This document shows, one piece after another, positions 3,118-8,031 of a stretch of DNA of 8,031 nt (within the stretch, counting starts at the first letter, position 1; the number at the start of each line of letters is the position of its first letter). The stretch is from Acidobacteriota bacterium (GTDB taxonomy: Bacteria > Acidobacteriota > Blastocatellia > Pyrinomonadales > Pyrinomonadaceae). A program made the translations under genes and the position numbers. Where the stretch lies: positions 1 through 8,031 of the forward strand of contig JADYZI010000382.1 of assembly GCA_020853255.1 (NCBI GenBank), written 5' to 3'. A model generated the notes under the pieces. That model worked only from the letters and a program-made list of their open reading frames with translations, was not told the DNA's origin and searched no databases.

Positions 3118-3193
<76 letters not shown>

Positions 3194-3288: not shown

Positions 3289-3361
<73 letters not shown>

Positions 3362-3363
<2 letters not shown>

Positions 3364-3395: not shown

Positions 3396-3414
3396 TGGTA
3401 ATTTTGACCATTTT
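3396..3414 (+). terminator. Weak terminator candidate after tRNA-Cys
   Basis: TGGT (3396-3399) can pair with ACCA (3407-3410) around a seven-base loop, followed by four T. The stem is only four pairs, so this is a weak call; it is listed because it is the first stem-plus-T structure after the tRNA. Confidence 0.25.
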
Positions 3415-3451
3415 CATGCGATTTGTCATTATCGTATGATTATCGTAACCC
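3409..3451. repeat. Left copy of a 43-44 bp block also found past the intact integrase gene
   Basis: This block aligns with 5247-5290 over its whole length with one gap and about five mismatches. It holds TCAT (3426-3429) and ATGA (3436-3439) as inverted half-sites around a six-base centre TATCGT, a layout like a tyrosine-recombinase core site. TATCGTA also appears twice with an 11-base step (3430-3436 and 3441-3447). In both places the block lies just downstream of the 3' end of an integrase gene or its remnant. It may be an attachment-site copy, or simply the conserved 3' flank of a duplicated element. Confidence 0.6.
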
Positions 3452-3463
3452 CGTGCACCTGCC

Positions 3464-3484
3464 AGCCTGCTTTTCGGCTTTTTT
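3464..3484 (+). terminator. Weak stem followed by six T
   Basis: AGCC (3464-3467) and GGCT (3476-3479) can pair around eight bases, with T at 3479-3484. It could end transcription from the tRNA operon, but the stem is short and the distance from tRNA-Cys is about 100 bp. Confidence 0.25.
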
Positions 3485-3494
3485 GAGGGTCTGG

Positions 3495-3630
3495 TTACTT
3501 CATCGACCTTGTCGCATCGATTTGCGCTCGTCAGCCCCGCACCGTGAGTTTCCATCGCCGCTCTTGGGATCAAGGGCGAAGATTTGGCGAAAACCGTCAC
3601 CCCGCCGCAGCTTGTCGGCCAAGCGTGCAC
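3495..3630 (-). pseudogene. Decayed 3' end of a tyrosine integrase gene
   Basis: Read on the minus strand, this stretch matches the C-terminal part of the intact integrase at 5299-6453, broken by small indels. The clearest match is 3501-3536 against 5344-5378: the intact gene encodes SDEHKFDAIRSM, and the remnant encodes ADERK, then a one-base deletion, then DATRSMK and a TAA at 3495-3497. Upstream, METHG occupies the place of the MRYAH catalytic-Tyr motif, with three bases missing so that the Tyr codon is lost. IFALDPKS lies where the LLGHSS motif is expected, and HAWPT near 3620-3630 resembles HTFAT of box II. No single frame is intact and everything N-terminal of box II is gone. It looks like the remains of an older, related element. 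The last motifs are weak; the 36-bp match is solid. Confidence 0.62.
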
Positions 3631-3760
3631 ATCACCCCTTTGCTGAAACAGGTTTAAAATACACTAATGCCTTCGGGCAGGAACGTATCGTGTGAAAACG
3701 CTCGAATAAAATTATGGAAATAACAGCCATTTCGGTTGCGGGGTGTATTAAGGAACTTAG
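3631..3760 (+). other. Leader region of the PIN-like gene
   Basis: This 130-bp stretch separates the integrase remnant from the PIN-like gene. It holds TGCC-TTCG-GGCA (3668-3679), a four-pair stem capped by the very stable C(UUCG)G tetraloop; no T run follows, so it is not a terminator. A TTGCTG at 3640-3645 with AT-rich DNA at 3653-3668 could be a promoter, but no well spaced -10 box stands out. A 16-codon frame at 3714-3764 is listed separately. Confidence 0.4.
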
Positions 3761-3764
3761 ATGA
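3714..3764 (+). CDS. Possible 16-residue leader peptide overlapping the PIN-like gene start
   Basis: ATG 3714 opens MEITAISVAGCIKELR and ends at TGA 3762-3764, which overlaps the ATG of the next gene (3761-3763) in the ATGA arrangement used for translational coupling. No Shine-Dalgarno is seen before ATG 3714, and the frame is closed upstream by TGA 3693-3695. It could be a real coupled leader, the relic of a frameshifted N-terminus, or chance. The AAGGA at 3750-3754 inside it serves the PIN-like gene. Confidence 0.25.
   Translation: MEITAISVAGCIKELR
3750..3754 (+). promoter_or_regulatory. Ribosome binding site of the PIN-like gene
   Basis: AAGGA sits six bases before ATG 3761. An in-frame TAG directly precedes that ATG (3758-3760), so translation cannot begin further upstream and this site decides the start. 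Confidence 0.7.
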
Positions 3765-5128
3765 GAGGACTGCGCATCATCCTAGATAAGTCCGCTGTTT
3801 TTGGACTTGGCAATGAAGAGATTGATTCGCTCGACAGGTATTTTTTTCAAGTCGTTCCACAGATTCTCGTAAATGAGATCATTGCTGACCTAACGAAGGA
3901 ACTGGCAGGGATGACGAAGCGAATCGCCGCGCATACTTATAGGGTTAGTGGCAATCAAGGGCTCGCCTTTGACCACCGTAAGCGACTGGTTGCGTCTCTG
4001 CAGGGGCGCGAAGCTCCAATGGACGGTCGTTTCATGGCATCTAGAGAAAAAGTTGTCAGGACCGCTAGCGGTTCATTGGCATCGCTCATAGAAACTCCAC
4101 TGGAAGATGAACTGTTAGCTCGTTGGGAGCGTCAGGAGTTTACGGATACAGAGCGCGAATGGGCGCAGCGGTTCAGAACAATAGCTGAGAGACCACTGGC
4201 AACCGAACTATACCTAGCAAAGATTGAGAGCGCCGGTCTGTCATTCGCAGTTCCTACGTCAGATGAGGAGCTAGCAAATTCAGTCAAGCACATCCTATCG
4301 GACATTCGAATGGTAACCAAGCTTTTTGAAATCCTCGAGGAAGACTTTCAAGTGCCTCCTGCCGTGCTTCGCCAAGCAGGCGAACGGTGGAGGGCGCAGG
4401 GCCCTAGCTCTTTTGGGGAGTTTGCCCCATTTGCACTCTTTTGCTTGAAGGCAAGCTTCATGTGGCACTTGTCTCTGACTAATACTCGATTGTTTGGTCC
4501 AAACAAGAATGACCGTAAGGATTTGGAGTACAGCTACTATCTCCCAGGTACGCAAATCTTCGCGACCAAGGACACGAAGCAATTCCGCCTCATGTCTTTC
4601 CTGACAGCGGCCCACCAAAGTGTCGTCGATGCTGACGACTTGAAACGGGATCTGCGAAGGGTCAGTGAGGACTGGAATCGAATGAGCATCAGCGAGAGAA
4701 TCGAAATGAATGAACGGCTCGGGTCGGCGCCTCCTGAGGTGTTTGATTCTCTGGTGTACCAACTTTGGCGTAAGCACGATGGAGAATTGAAGCCGTCGAT
4801 GCACGCGCCAATCGCGAAGACGAAATGGATTGATGATTCACTTCCGGCAGATCAGCAAGTCCCGTTTACCATGGCGGAATTTGTCAAAAAGAAGTATCAA
4901 GAAGTTCGTGAAGGCAAGCCCCTGTTACCAGAAGAGGTTGACGCCCTAAATCTTTTTGCCGGGAGCACCGATCCGATCTCAATCCTCGTTTTCAACAGTC
5001 GAATCAGTCGCGAGCGAGCCGTAAAATGGTATCCCAATCTCACTCTCGATGACATGGACGACGAGATAATGAATGAAATCTATCTGGATCCTAGGGAGTA
5101 TAAGAACATAGTGAGTATTGGAGAGTGA
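3761..5128 (+). CDS. PIN-like nuclease-type protein of unknown role, island-borne
   Basis: A 455-residue soluble protein that I cannot assign to a named family. Its ends and middle show a split PIN-like pattern. Strand one is LRIILDKSAV, with D9. VVPQILVNEIIADL carries E39, matching the conserved acid after the PIN 'p.ll..E' strand. After about 200 mostly helical residues, DLEYSYYLPGTQIFATKD supplies D254 and D271, the two late acids with the typical D-x-x-Y-x-Y-LP...D spacing. PIN domains use such acids to bind metal and cut RNA, so a metal-dependent ribonuclease is the likely chemistry. The large insertion between E39 and D254 and the C-terminal 170 residues (290-455, charged, no known motif) are unexplained. 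There is no signal peptide or membrane segment and no antitoxin-like partner next to it. It lies between an integrase remnant and an intact integrase facing it, so it is mobile cargo; a defence role is conceivable but unproven. Confidence 0.7.
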   Translation: MRGLRIILDKSAVFGLGNEEIDSLDRYFFQVVPQILVNEIIADLTKELAGMTKRIAAHTYRVSGNQGLAFDHRKRLVASLQGREAPMDGRFMASREKVVRTASGSLASLIETPLEDELLARWERQEFTDTEREWAQRFRTIAERPLATELYLAKIESAGLSFAVPTSDEELANSVKHILSDIRMVTKLFEILEEDFQVPPAVLRQAGERWRAQGPSSFGEFAPFALFCLKASFMWHLSLTNTRLFGPNKNDRKDLEYSYYLPGTQIFATKDTKQFRLMSFLTAAHQSVVDADDLKRDLRRVSEDWNRMSISERIEMNERLGSAPPEVFDSLVYQLWRKHDGELKPSMHAPIAKTKWIDDSLPADQQVPFTMAEFVKKKYQEVREGKPLLPEEVDALNLFAGSTDPISILVFNSRISRERAVKWYPNLTLDDMDDEIMNEIYLDPREYKNIVSIGE

Positions 5129-5246: not shown

Positions 5247-5290
5247 CATTTTTGTGCGTTTTGTCATTTATCGTATGATTATGGCAACCC
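5247..5290. repeat. Right copy of the 43-44 bp block, next to the intact integrase stop
   Basis: This copy matches 3409-3451 with one inserted T and about five substitutions. It begins eight bases past the integrase stop codon (TGA on the minus strand at 5299-5301). The TCAT/ATGA dyad is kept (5264-5267 and 5275-5278) with a seven-base centre, while the second TATCGTA has become TATGGCA. Similarity to the left copy resumes inside the integrase coding end (5344-5378), so both copies belong to one longer diverged duplication of the int 3' region. Confidence 0.65.
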
Positions 5291-5298
5291 GGCCACTT

Positions 5299-6453
5299 TC
5301 AGCTCGCCTTGTCCTCTCTCGGCAATTTCGGATGAGCCTCTTCCATCGACCTTATCGCGTCGAATTTATGCTCGTCGGAAGGATGGGCATATCGCATCGC
5401 CATGCGCAGACTGGAATGGCCGAGCAGAGCAGCCAAGGTCAGAAGATCACCGGGACGACGTTCGAGAAACCGGGTCGCGAAGGTGTGCCGGAATGAATAG
5501 AGTGTGCACACCCCGTCAGTTCCACTTCGATTAACGCCGTCAATCTTGCTACGTCTCAGGGTTCCGTAGTGAGCGTTATTGAATTTGAGGGCTGGCTTGT
5601 TGGGATCATTACCGCCCCGTCCTCCGGCGAAGATGTACTTCCCCTTTGCGTCGGCTACACGTTTGGCTAGGACATTTGCAGCACGCTTTGAAAGTGGCAC
5701 TGTTCGCCTGGCCGCTTTTGTTTTGCCTTCTTTAACAAGAAGGTAAGGCTTATCGACATTTAGGAACAGGTCGCGAACGGCCAACTTGCAAAGTTCTTCG
5801 GGACGTAAGCCGGCCTCGACCAAAACGGTCGCATAATCTTGTAGGGGCTGCGACGCGGCCATCAAATAAAGCCTTTCTTCCTCTCGGTTGAGTACTCGCC
5901 CCGGCTCGCTGTCCTCCGGAAGGAATTTGACGAGCTTAACCGGATTGGTTGTAAGAATGCCATCCGCAACAAGATTACTGAACATCTTCTTCAGACAGGC
6001 CAGTTCTCTGTTCACGGTTGCATTGGAGATCTTCTTTTTTTTAGTCTGTCTGGACTTTCCGGATTTTGGCTTAACACCTCGCGGAGCACCGTATTGAGAT
6101 TTTCGCCAGGTAATGAATTTCTCTATTTGAGGCTTGGTTATACGATCAACCCGAGTGATATTGCCCAAATAATTGATCAGGGCCTTTGACGCGATTTCGT
6201 AGCGGGCGGCGGTACTCTTCTTTTGTCTTGATGCGGACCACTCGAGAAAGTCCGTCATTGCTGTCTTGAAACCCGGGATCGGCTTTTTTTCTAGGATACC
6301 TATGCCTTCATTGCGAAGCTTCGTCCGGAACGCCTCGGCAAATGCTTCTGCCTTCCGAAGATTTGTATGTCCGGTCGATTGCTCAATGCGTTGACCCTCA
6401 AAGACAAATCGCATCGACCAGGTTTTGCCGCTTTTCTGCTTGTAGAGTTTCAT
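5299..6453 (-). CDS. int: Tyrosine recombinase (phage-type integrase)
   Basis: A complete 384-residue integrase that would insert and, with a helper, excise the element. Residues 1-50 form an arm-type DNA-binding domain (KSGKTWSMRF...), about 62-165 the SAM-like core-binding domain, and about 185-365 the catalytic domain. Active-site residues visible are R217 (AGLRPEEL), K244 (GKTK hairpin), R322 (YSFRHTFATR), H346 (LLGHSS) and the nucleophile Y355 (MRYAHPS). Box II has Tyr (Y319) where many relatives have His; this variant occurs in working family members. A Lys/Arg-rich insert (125-143) extends the core-binding domain. The start ATG (6451-6453) has AGGA eight bases upstream. It lies 103 bp after the excisionase-like gene on the same strand, and converges with the PIN-like gene. 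Confidence 0.95.
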   Translation of the reverse strand: MKLYKQKSGKTWSMRFVFEGQRIEQSTGHTNLRKAEAFAEAFRTKLRNEGIGILEKKPIPGFKTAMTDFLEWSASRQKKSTAARYEIASKALINYLGNITRVDRITKPQIEKFITWRKSQYGAPRGVKPKSGKSRQTKKKKISNATVNRELACLKKMFSNLVADGILTTNPVKLVKFLPEDSEPGRVLNREEERLYLMAASQPLQDYATVLVEAGLRPEELCKLAVRDLFLNVDKPYLLVKEGKTKAARRTVPLSKRAANVLAKRVADAKGKYIFAGGRGGNDPNKPALKFNNAHYGTLRRSKIDGVNRSGTDGVCTLYSFRHTFATRFLERRPGDLLTLAALLGHSSLRMAMRYAHPSDEHKFDAIRSMEEAHPKLPREDKAS

Positions 6454-6556: not shown

Positions 6557-6766
6557 TTATTCGTCTGAATCATAGCGATCGCTATCGTCCGTGCTCAGGT
6601 ATCGCATAGCCTCATCGCGGAGAATTATGCGGCGAGAACCTTTCTTCATACTCACGAGTTTTCCATTTCTAATATCTTTTCGGATCTTTGGCGCGGAGAG
6701 CGTGGATAACGCTACCAGTTCTTCGATTGAATACGCGAGTTTCTCCGTTGGTATGTAATTGTCCAT
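6557..6766 (-). CDS. Excisionase-like helix-turn-helix protein
   Basis: A 69-residue protein of the MerR/AlpA-like small DNA-binding type. LAYSIEELVAL (10-20) forms the first helix, APKIRKDIRNGKL (25-37) the recognition helix, and GSRRIILRDEAMRYL (43-57) the wing and closing helix with the family's usual order. The tail is acidic (DDSDRYDSDE). Such proteins bind arm sites and steer an integrase toward excision, or act as element regulators. The gene is just upstream of int on the same strand, the usual xis-int order. GAGG lies seven bases before the ATG (6764-6766). Excisionase is the likely role from context; a transcription regulator is the alternative. Confidence 0.82.
   Translation of the reverse strand: MDNYIPTEKLAYSIEELVALSTLSAPKIRKDIRNGKLVSMKKGSRRIILRDEAMRYLSTDDSDRYDSDE
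6572..6585. repeat. 14-bp perfect palindrome containing GCGATCGC
   Basis: ATAGCGATCGCTAT (6572-6585) is a perfect palindrome inside the 3' end of the excisionase-like gene, where it encodes DSDRY. The core GCGATCGC is the HIP1 octamer abundant in many cyanobacteria, but one copy in 8 kb says nothing on origin. It could be a protein binding site or a by-product of the repeated DSD codons. Confidence 0.4.
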
Positions 6767-6944: not shown

Positions 6945-8031
6945 TCATGGTTCGAATTGTGATTTGAGATCTGTCAGCTTTCCAATTCGTCTGACGATGG
7001 TTCCCGGACTAGGACATTCTCCGCGAATGCTGGCACGTCGAATCTCATGAAAGGTCGGCATTCGGCCGGCTTTTCTCGATAACGTCTTGAGGGCCATTAC
7101 GATCTCGTTGTCTGTATATGAACGCGGTTTCACTTTACCGAAGCCAGCCGCCCGATACGCCTGAGGTAAACTTCCGAACATCCTCGCGAATGTAGTAGCT
7201 GAGGCGCACTCGCCGAGTTTGCTTGCGAGATTGATGTCCCGGTCGGTCGGTTTTCGTCCGAGTTTCTCTCCGAGCGCTTTTAGCTGAGCAATCAATTCTT
7301 CCTTGGTATATTTTTGCCAGAATGTTGTCCCTTGTTGGGCTTTTCGGTAAGCGGTCTGCGTTCCGGCCGCGCGTCGCGCTTTTGAAAGCGTTCCAAACGC
7401 CTTCAGAAACATCTTCAACGACGGCCCCTTACCGGCCTCATACAACCCCCGAACATCCGATCCCTGAACTGGACGGTCGAGTGTCGCGTCCAACTCCCTA
7501 AGAATCGTAATCATCTCTTCGCGGCTGTAAATTCTTTTAGCAGCGCCGGCTGCCTCGATCGCGGCGGGGACGGAGCCGAATGCGCGTACAAAATGATAAG
7601 GAGGTGAAACCTCTCGTCTCCGTCGTGCATCGTCAACGTCCTCGTCAAAAAGCGGTCGGCCCAACTTCCGACGAAGTTGGCGAACTTCATTCAGAAGCCT
7701 TTCGCGATCAGATGCGGCGAACTCCTGCTTGTACCTGGGCTTCAGCTTTGCCCGCTTTAATGCGGAAAGAAAACTTCCGAACACCGCGTAGTATACGTAC
7801 AGCGGGTAAACGCGTTCTCGTTCCCGTAGTCCGGGCCAATCGTATGTTGTTGGTGTTCTGCCCAGTTCTCGGGCAATTTCTTTGAGCTCAGCGACTAAAT
7901 ATTGTTTCGATGGCAGATCATCCGTCTTACGCCTCTTTTCCTTGCCGCTTCTGATTTCCGGGTTCTCAAGGAACCAACGTCGGCACGCCCGGCAATAAAA
8001 CCTCTGCTTCCGATGCTTTCCAAATCCCGCC
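6945..8031 (-). CDS. Zinc-finger / homing-endonuclease-associated-repeat protein (5' end outside window)
   Basis: The frame stays open from the right edge (first full codon 8028-8030) to TGA 6945-6947, giving 361 visible residues; the GTG at 7782-7784 falls inside a repeat and is not the true start. The visible N-terminus shows GFGKHRKQRFYC then RACRRWF: a CxxC pair (Cys codons 7992-7994 and 7983-7985) that looks like the second half of a zinc ribbon as in transposase-type fingers. Five repeats of about 53-56 residues follow, roughly 7901-7743, 7709-7542, 7529-7362, 7310-7143 and 7118-6948. Each has a helix with L..L...LGR.P, then D or E, then a helix ending FGS...A...AG. This matches the repeats found beside homing endonuclease (HNH) domains, thought to bind DNA in modular fashion. 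No HNH nuclease motif is in the visible part. It is likely a DNA-binding protein of the element. Confidence 0.8.
   Translation of the reverse strand, partial: AGFGKHRKQRFYCRACRRWFLENPEIRSGKEKRRKTDDLPSKQYLVAELKEIARELGRTPTTYDWPGLRERERVYPLYVYYAVFGSFLSALKRAKLKPRYKQEFAASDRERLLNEVRQLRRKLGRPLFDEDVDDARRRREVSPPYHFVRAFGSVPAAIEAAGAAKRIYSREEMITILRELDATLDRPVQGSDVRGLYEAGKGPSLKMFLKAFGTLSKARRAAGTQTAYRKAQQGTTFWQKYTKEELIAQLKALGEKLGRKPTDRDINLASKLGECASATTFARMFGSLPQAYRAAGFGKVKPRSYTDNEIVMALKTLSRKAGRMPTFHEIRRASIRGECPSPGTIVRRIGKLTDLKSQFEP

Follow-up and report, generated by a model that had tools for sequence, protein, structure and literature searches.

Results

The stretch of DNA analysed here, referred to as the window, comprises positions 1 to 8,031 of contig JADYZI010000382.1 (forward strand) from an Acidobacteriota bacterium (GenBank assembly GCA_020853255.1). 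Between a tRNA-Cys gene and a complete tyrosine integrase gene it carries an open reading frame (ORF) for a 455-residue protein, which we call the split-PIN protein (Table 1). The ORF begins with ATG, and the motif AAGGAA lies at 3750–3755. A first-pass annotation, made from the letters of the sequence, had read four of its residues, D9, E39, D254 and D271, as the acid tetrad of a PIN nuclease, and had suggested that the protein, large and without a partner, might be a stand-alone RNase-type effector. The observation is confirmed as a true and well-conserved feature, and the interpretation is partly supported. By predicted fold the protein is an unnamed variant of PIN nuclease, and its gene is an accessory gene without a fixed partner.

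The predicted fold is that of a PIN domain

Confident AlphaFold models were obtained for the window protein and for one distant relative, and a PIN core is present in both. When the models were compared with known structures by VIA-align, PIN domains made up the first 23 of the 50 matches listed for the window protein and the first 32 of the 50 listed for the relative, each series being followed by a gap in Z score to unrelated folds. Fifteen of the 23 and 15 of the 32 are PIN domains by title; the others (8 and 17) we take to be PIN domains. In both models, the predicted positions of the four acids relative to strands and helices fit the PIN layout. Foldseek alone gave no significant match in the PDB for either model, and none in a viral library for the distant relative.

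Profile searches against PIN families had also been proposed at the outset, and these matched no PIN family. Nothing significant was found for the window protein in Pfam, PADLOC, NCBIfam or PDB sequences, for its relatives in Pfam, or for a profile of the family in PDB sequences. PF01850, the family of VapC-type PIN toxins, did not match the window protein at E values up to 10, and at E up to 1 it was absent for 66 relatives (among the best 25 of 29 families) and for 13 relatives (all 4 families); PIN_5 (PF08745) was likewise absent among the families listed for the window protein and its relatives. Because neither sequence profiles nor Foldseek alone gave a match, the assignment rests on the two predicted structures together with the acids, and on this evidence we consider a PIN fold close to certain.

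According to the models, an insertion of some 155 residues, largely made of helices, splits the PIN core between E39 and D254, the boundary of the first core segment being a reading of modelled secondary structure. The spacing of 215 positions between E39 and D254, remarked on in the first-pass annotation, is exact. The C-terminal extension, put there at 170 unexplained residues, exists but is nearer 150 by the model, in which it follows a helix at 291–307. Among relatives the insertion is conserved, with W122, F127, R139 and W210 invariant or nearly so, and the C-terminal tail is variable.

The acid tetrad is nearly invariant in a large family

Conservation was counted in 229 of 246 proteins, the window protein included: 109 of a near group (at least 380 residues) and 120 of a far group (at least 370 residues), with 17 shorter proteins excluded. 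The tetrad lies where it had been placed and is nearly invariant. E39 and D271 are kept in all 229 proteins, D254 in 228 (one G) and D9 in 227 (one N, one gap); K10 (228/229), S11 and K46 (227/229 each) are also kept. D251 is a feature of the near group only, present in 107/109 near proteins and in 0/120 far ones, all 120 of which have N or H. A further full-length relative, L049 (1985–3223), has N in place of D271 and a gene of the Old family some 1.1 kb away. Identity with the window protein drops to about 20% among homologues that bear the tetrad, and constancy to such a depth is far beyond chance.

With the window protein as query, a protein database search returned 129 proteins at E ≤ 0.001, and a profile of 13 distant relatives returned 1346 protein clusters at E ≤ 1e-3; both searches scored just those candidates with most words in common with the query, nearly 8000, and listed the best 120 matches. 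None of the best 120 proteins listed in either search carries a precomputed Pfam domain. Among the matches listed, named relatives are nearly all Acidobacteriota, the closest (80%) in a Chloracidobacterium metagenome-assembled genome. No description of the family was found in titles and abstract openings of the literature, a coverage outside which subscription papers and supplements lie.

The gene is accessory, under selection and often broken

Comparison of the window gene with that of an 80% relative (L001) gave a ratio of nonsynonymous to synonymous substitution rates (dN/dS) of 0.085 at a dS of 1.28, and intact copies are therefore maintained by purifying selection. Similarity between the two at the DNA level is limited to the ORF (3761–5125), and the surroundings differ: in L001 the gene is preceded by an AtuA family gene and followed by an enoyl-CoA hydratase gene, and no integrase was noticed by eye in the 15-kb locus. 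That locus also holds, some 9 kb away from its split-PIN gene, a RepA/AAA-like ORF (13938–15041, minus strand) with an HTH-like end by eye, perhaps part of another mobile element.

The distribution is patchy. The gene was present in 8/396 genomes sampled from the phylum (near profile), in 3/162 genomes of one class (broader profile; the three had been known before), and in 19/399 genomes of another class, in surveys whose sensitivity is limited by a quick initial screening step. Searches of viral contigs, plasmids and phages with queries from the near group were empty. Of 28 relatives with flanking DNA, 4 are close (100 bp or less) to the end of their contig, and 10 of the 24 others are broken by stops, frame changes or truncation, some of which may be assembly errors. 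In L021 a transposase-like ORF (5270–6364, IS630-type by eye) lies inside the split-PIN relative, which is left in pieces.

A decayed and a complete integrase end flank the gene in the window

The first-pass annotation had placed the gene between two integrase ends, beside a tRNA. One complete integrase is present; the other end proved to be a short, decayed remnant of about 25 codons beside tRNA-Cys. This remnant is the left member (124 bp) of a pair of direct repeats, identical in 89/131 columns (68%; E 2e-10 when the two were compared under lenient scoring), which contain the last ~25 integrase codons and ~50 bp beyond. The left repeat begins 45 bp past tRNA-Cys, its reading frame is broken by a stop, and its protein similarity to the integrase is weak. 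A 23-mer common to the repeats (up to 3 mismatches) occurs twice in the window and in 0 of 200 shuffles. From the end of tRNA-Cys to the split-PIN start codon is 397 bp.

Table 1. Features of the window, with the split-PIN gene and its modelled parts first and the surrounding features in map order below
Feature	Position	Strand	Evidence
Split-PIN gene, 455 residues	3761..5128 (stop codon within span)	+	ORF, model, homologues
Predicted PIN core part 1, residues ~1–61, with D9 (3785–3787) and E39 (3875–3877)	3761..3943	+	Model strand 4–8, helix 34–45; conservation
Predicted insertion in PIN core, mostly helical, residues ~62–217, with conserved W122, F127, R139, W210	3944..4411	+	Model; alignments
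Predicted PIN core part 2, residues ~218–307, with D254 (4520–4522) and D271 (4571–4573)	4412..4681	+	Model helix 251–258, strand 266–269; conservation
C-terminal extension, residues ~308–455, length differing among relatives	4682..5125	+	Model; alignments
tRNA-Gly (gcc)	3118..3193	+	
tRNA-Cys (gca)	3289..3363	+	
Left direct repeat: decayed copy of integrase 3′ end and adjoining DNA	3409..3532		
Right direct repeat: 3′ end of complete integrase and adjoining DNA	5247..5376		
Tyrosine integrase, 384 residues	5299..6453	−	PF00589 6.4e-19, PF13102 2.9e-9
Small HTH_17-like protein	6557..6766	−	PF12728 E 0.0009, 19.9 bits, below cut-off of 27
Protein with five HNH_repeat stretches, open at window end	6945..8030	−	PF18780 E 2.9e-42

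In the simplest reading, a related element was once inserted here and lost nearly all of its integrase, leaving the split-PIN gene as cargo between tRNA-Cys, with the decayed integrase end, and a second, complete integrase; the island would have been built from more than one integration. The window equals in length the longest contig listed for its split-PIN protein (8031 bases) and is probably the whole contig, with the outer end of the element beyond it. The small HTH_17-like protein is perhaps excisionase-like. At the left of the window are two ORFs that we take, by eye, to be glycoside-hydrolase-like (164–1270) and substrate-binding-protein-like (1294–2841). G+C content runs from 0.48 to 0.54 along the window, promoter and terminator scans gave scores near the shuffle mean, and no second copy of the 3′ end of tRNA-Cys was found in the window. 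The position beside a tRNA holds for the window, but a tRNA and integrase setting is not family-wide: a tRNA lies within 2 kb in 3/28 relatives, and we reject the tRNA as a general insertion site of the split-PIN family.

Relatives share no neighbouring gene family

An all-against-all BLAST comparison (1e-6) of 29 loci, a test that could miss strongly diverged families, showed no neighbour family shared by three or more loci once antisense shadows of the split-PIN gene were set aside, in agreement with the earlier description of a protein without a partner gene. Neighbour pairs shared by two loci belong to common families, by eye enoyl-CoA hydratases, short-chain dehydrogenases, response regulators and ABC ATPases. 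No cognate antitoxin gene was found next door in the same comparison, though diverged families could escape it.

Individual loci hold genes of defence or mobility. Hand-picked cases are a Gabija-like pair near L002 (GajA 4.4e-50, GajB 1.3e-20) and Old near L049 (1.8e-49). L018 has SLFN_AlbA_2, a CAP12-type TIR match below cut-off and a serine recombinase; L019 a TrwC relaxase; L062 a tyrosine integrase; L063 a RES-domain protein; and L056 a VapC. In 2/10 genomes (L058/G829 and L056/G581) a VapC-type PIN gene is found no more than 1 kb from the split-PIN gene, against 0.09 expected (P 0.004, post hoc). In L060 (8276–13834), a broken relative stands beside a TROVE (Ro60) protein and genes that by eye are RtcA- and RtcB-like RNA repair genes. 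In L002 (11312–11995) and L019 (8390–9172) a gene next to the split-PIN gene encodes a protein with a CxxC...EH start, HNH-like by eye; BLAST does not group the two, and neither matches a Pfam family at E 0.01.

For a controlled comparison, the surroundings of 13 split-PIN genes to a distance of 4 kb (103 ORFs; 3/13 with broken copies; L049 not included) served as targets, and 13 regions of these contigs lying 21 kb or more away (101 ORFs) served as controls. At E ≤ 1e-12, 52 PADLOC models matched in the targets, many of them through GajA and GajB of L002, and 25 in the controls, mainly methyltransferases. Since each list shows the best 25 rows and a single protein matches many models, we draw no defence enrichment from these figures. 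Pfam gave TrwC, TrwB and an IS66 transposase among the best 25 of 117 families in the targets, and no such gene among the best 25 of 104 in the controls, so that within these rows the two sets differ in the direction expected for mobile genes. A phmmer test for mobile genes was weak, as its four target matches (3/13 regions) are the query proteins themselves; the 13 controls hold no relative of those proteins.

Discussion

PIN enzymes cleave RNA with metal ions bound by their acids; PMC12923823 describes four canonical acids and a two-metal mechanism for them. We propose that the split-PIN gene encodes a self-restrained, single-protein, metal-dependent PIN endoribonuclease carried as an accessory gene, an explanation whose chances, taken whole, we judge to be evenly balanced. 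Its PIN core would be assembled from residues ~1–61 and ~218–307, with D9, E39, D254 and D271 binding Mg2+ or Mn2+ and cutting RNA, and that the protein is an active nuclease is likely. A one-protein build without an antitoxin needs another form of restraint, and the conserved insertion between the second and third acids is the obvious candidate: together with the tail, where present, it may bind substrate or restrain the nuclease until a trigger arrives, so that no separate antitoxin would be needed. The trigger would most likely be phage infection or another stress, leading to abortive-type defence.

The closest precedent is DS-3, a tested one-protein anti-phage system of Escherichia coli found by DefensePredictor; its report (PMC13092281) describes a split PIN domain and no antitoxin, and its authors suggest auto-inhibition. 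The split-PIN family may work like DS-3, to which it is likened by description: one protein, a PIN domain split along the chain and no antitoxin in either. The DS-3 split, however, is described there as lying between N- and C-terminus, whereas in the split-PIN protein both PIN parts would fall within residues ~1–307, followed by the variable tail. The PIN domain of SMG6, a eukaryotic nonsense-mediated decay factor, is among the best fold matches and has a D-E-D-D tetrad with a similar first spacing, but its E1282 and D1353 are 71 residues apart, compared with 215 between the corresponding acids here.

Several observations set limits to the proposed explanation. In hhalign, for which a positive control gave 1e-31 and a PIN versus PIN_5 comparison 0.048, the core aligned with 28 VapC-type PIN domains from ten genomes at E 0.22, and the reversed core at 0.21; the best piece of the core reached 0.027. 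The inspection of homologue neighbourhoods for defence genes and integrases that was proposed at the outset did yield single cases, but defence genes did not separate the 13 target from the 13 control regions. Finally, a patchy, decaying, partner-free distribution suits defence but would also suit other accessory roles, and for this reason we place the defence role slightly short of even.

Other explanations draw on parts of the same evidence. VapC toxins are about 130–150 residues long, with an adjacent antitoxin and no large insertion. The split-PIN protein resembles them in predicted fold and four-acid pattern, and it might be a toxin whose partner antitoxin is an RNA or comes from a gene at another site, a reading to which the VapC-type genes within 1 kb in two genomes and the RES-domain protein near L063 could be added. 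It differs from them in its large insertion, in the want of an antitoxin gene family next door and of a hidden Markov model match, and in being about three times the size of VapC; with no neighbour family in more than 2/29 loci by BLAST, we find this reading improbable. A HARP-type RNA-processing enzyme, in which the insertion would act like the HARP spike-helix domain and position tRNA or another structured RNA for maturation rather than for defence, seems unlikely to about the same degree. HARP (PIN_5) minimal RNase P also has helices inserted in the PIN core between early and late catalytic acids, proposed in the published HARP description as a substrate-binding arm, and we infer that the point of insertion is the same. 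But HARP is ~190–200 residues long with two inserted helices, against 455 residues and about ten inserted elements here, and there is no PIN_5 profile match (hhalign core E 0.083, against two sequences only). HARP, moreover, needs its D138/D142 pair, which has no family-wide counterpart: the nearest candidate, D251 beside D254, is confined to the near group. Nor is a sparse and often broken gene suited to a housekeeping step.

Alternatively, the protein might serve its mobile element, for example by keeping competing elements out or by governing transfer. Such a function would fit the integrase that adjoins the gene in the window and the serine recombinase (L018), TrwC relaxase (L019), coupling-protein domain and integrase (L062) among neighbours of relatives. 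Many relatives, however, have ordinary chromosomal neighbours by eye among the loci listed, and the near-group searches of viral contigs, plasmids and phages were empty, which leaves this function less probable still. Least credible, to the point that we give it hardly any weight, is an enzymatically dead PIN-like scaffold: the asparagine in place of D271 in L049 is in its favour, but the tetrad is almost invariant over the 229 proteins.

Tentatively, and with less confidence than in a defence role as such, we suggest that these proteins form an unnamed family of one-protein immune nucleases, with sensor, inhibitor and PIN effector in one chain and the insertion serving as a lock opened by phage infection. 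If so, toxin and antitoxin would be folded into one molecule. With 1346 clusters, near-invariant nuclease residues, no partner gene and no PIN family matched in Pfam scans, the family lends itself to testing directly whether one polypeptide chain can restrain its own PIN nuclease. The result with DS-3 has given this question a concrete form in E. coli, and the split-PIN family would extend it to the Acidobacteriota.
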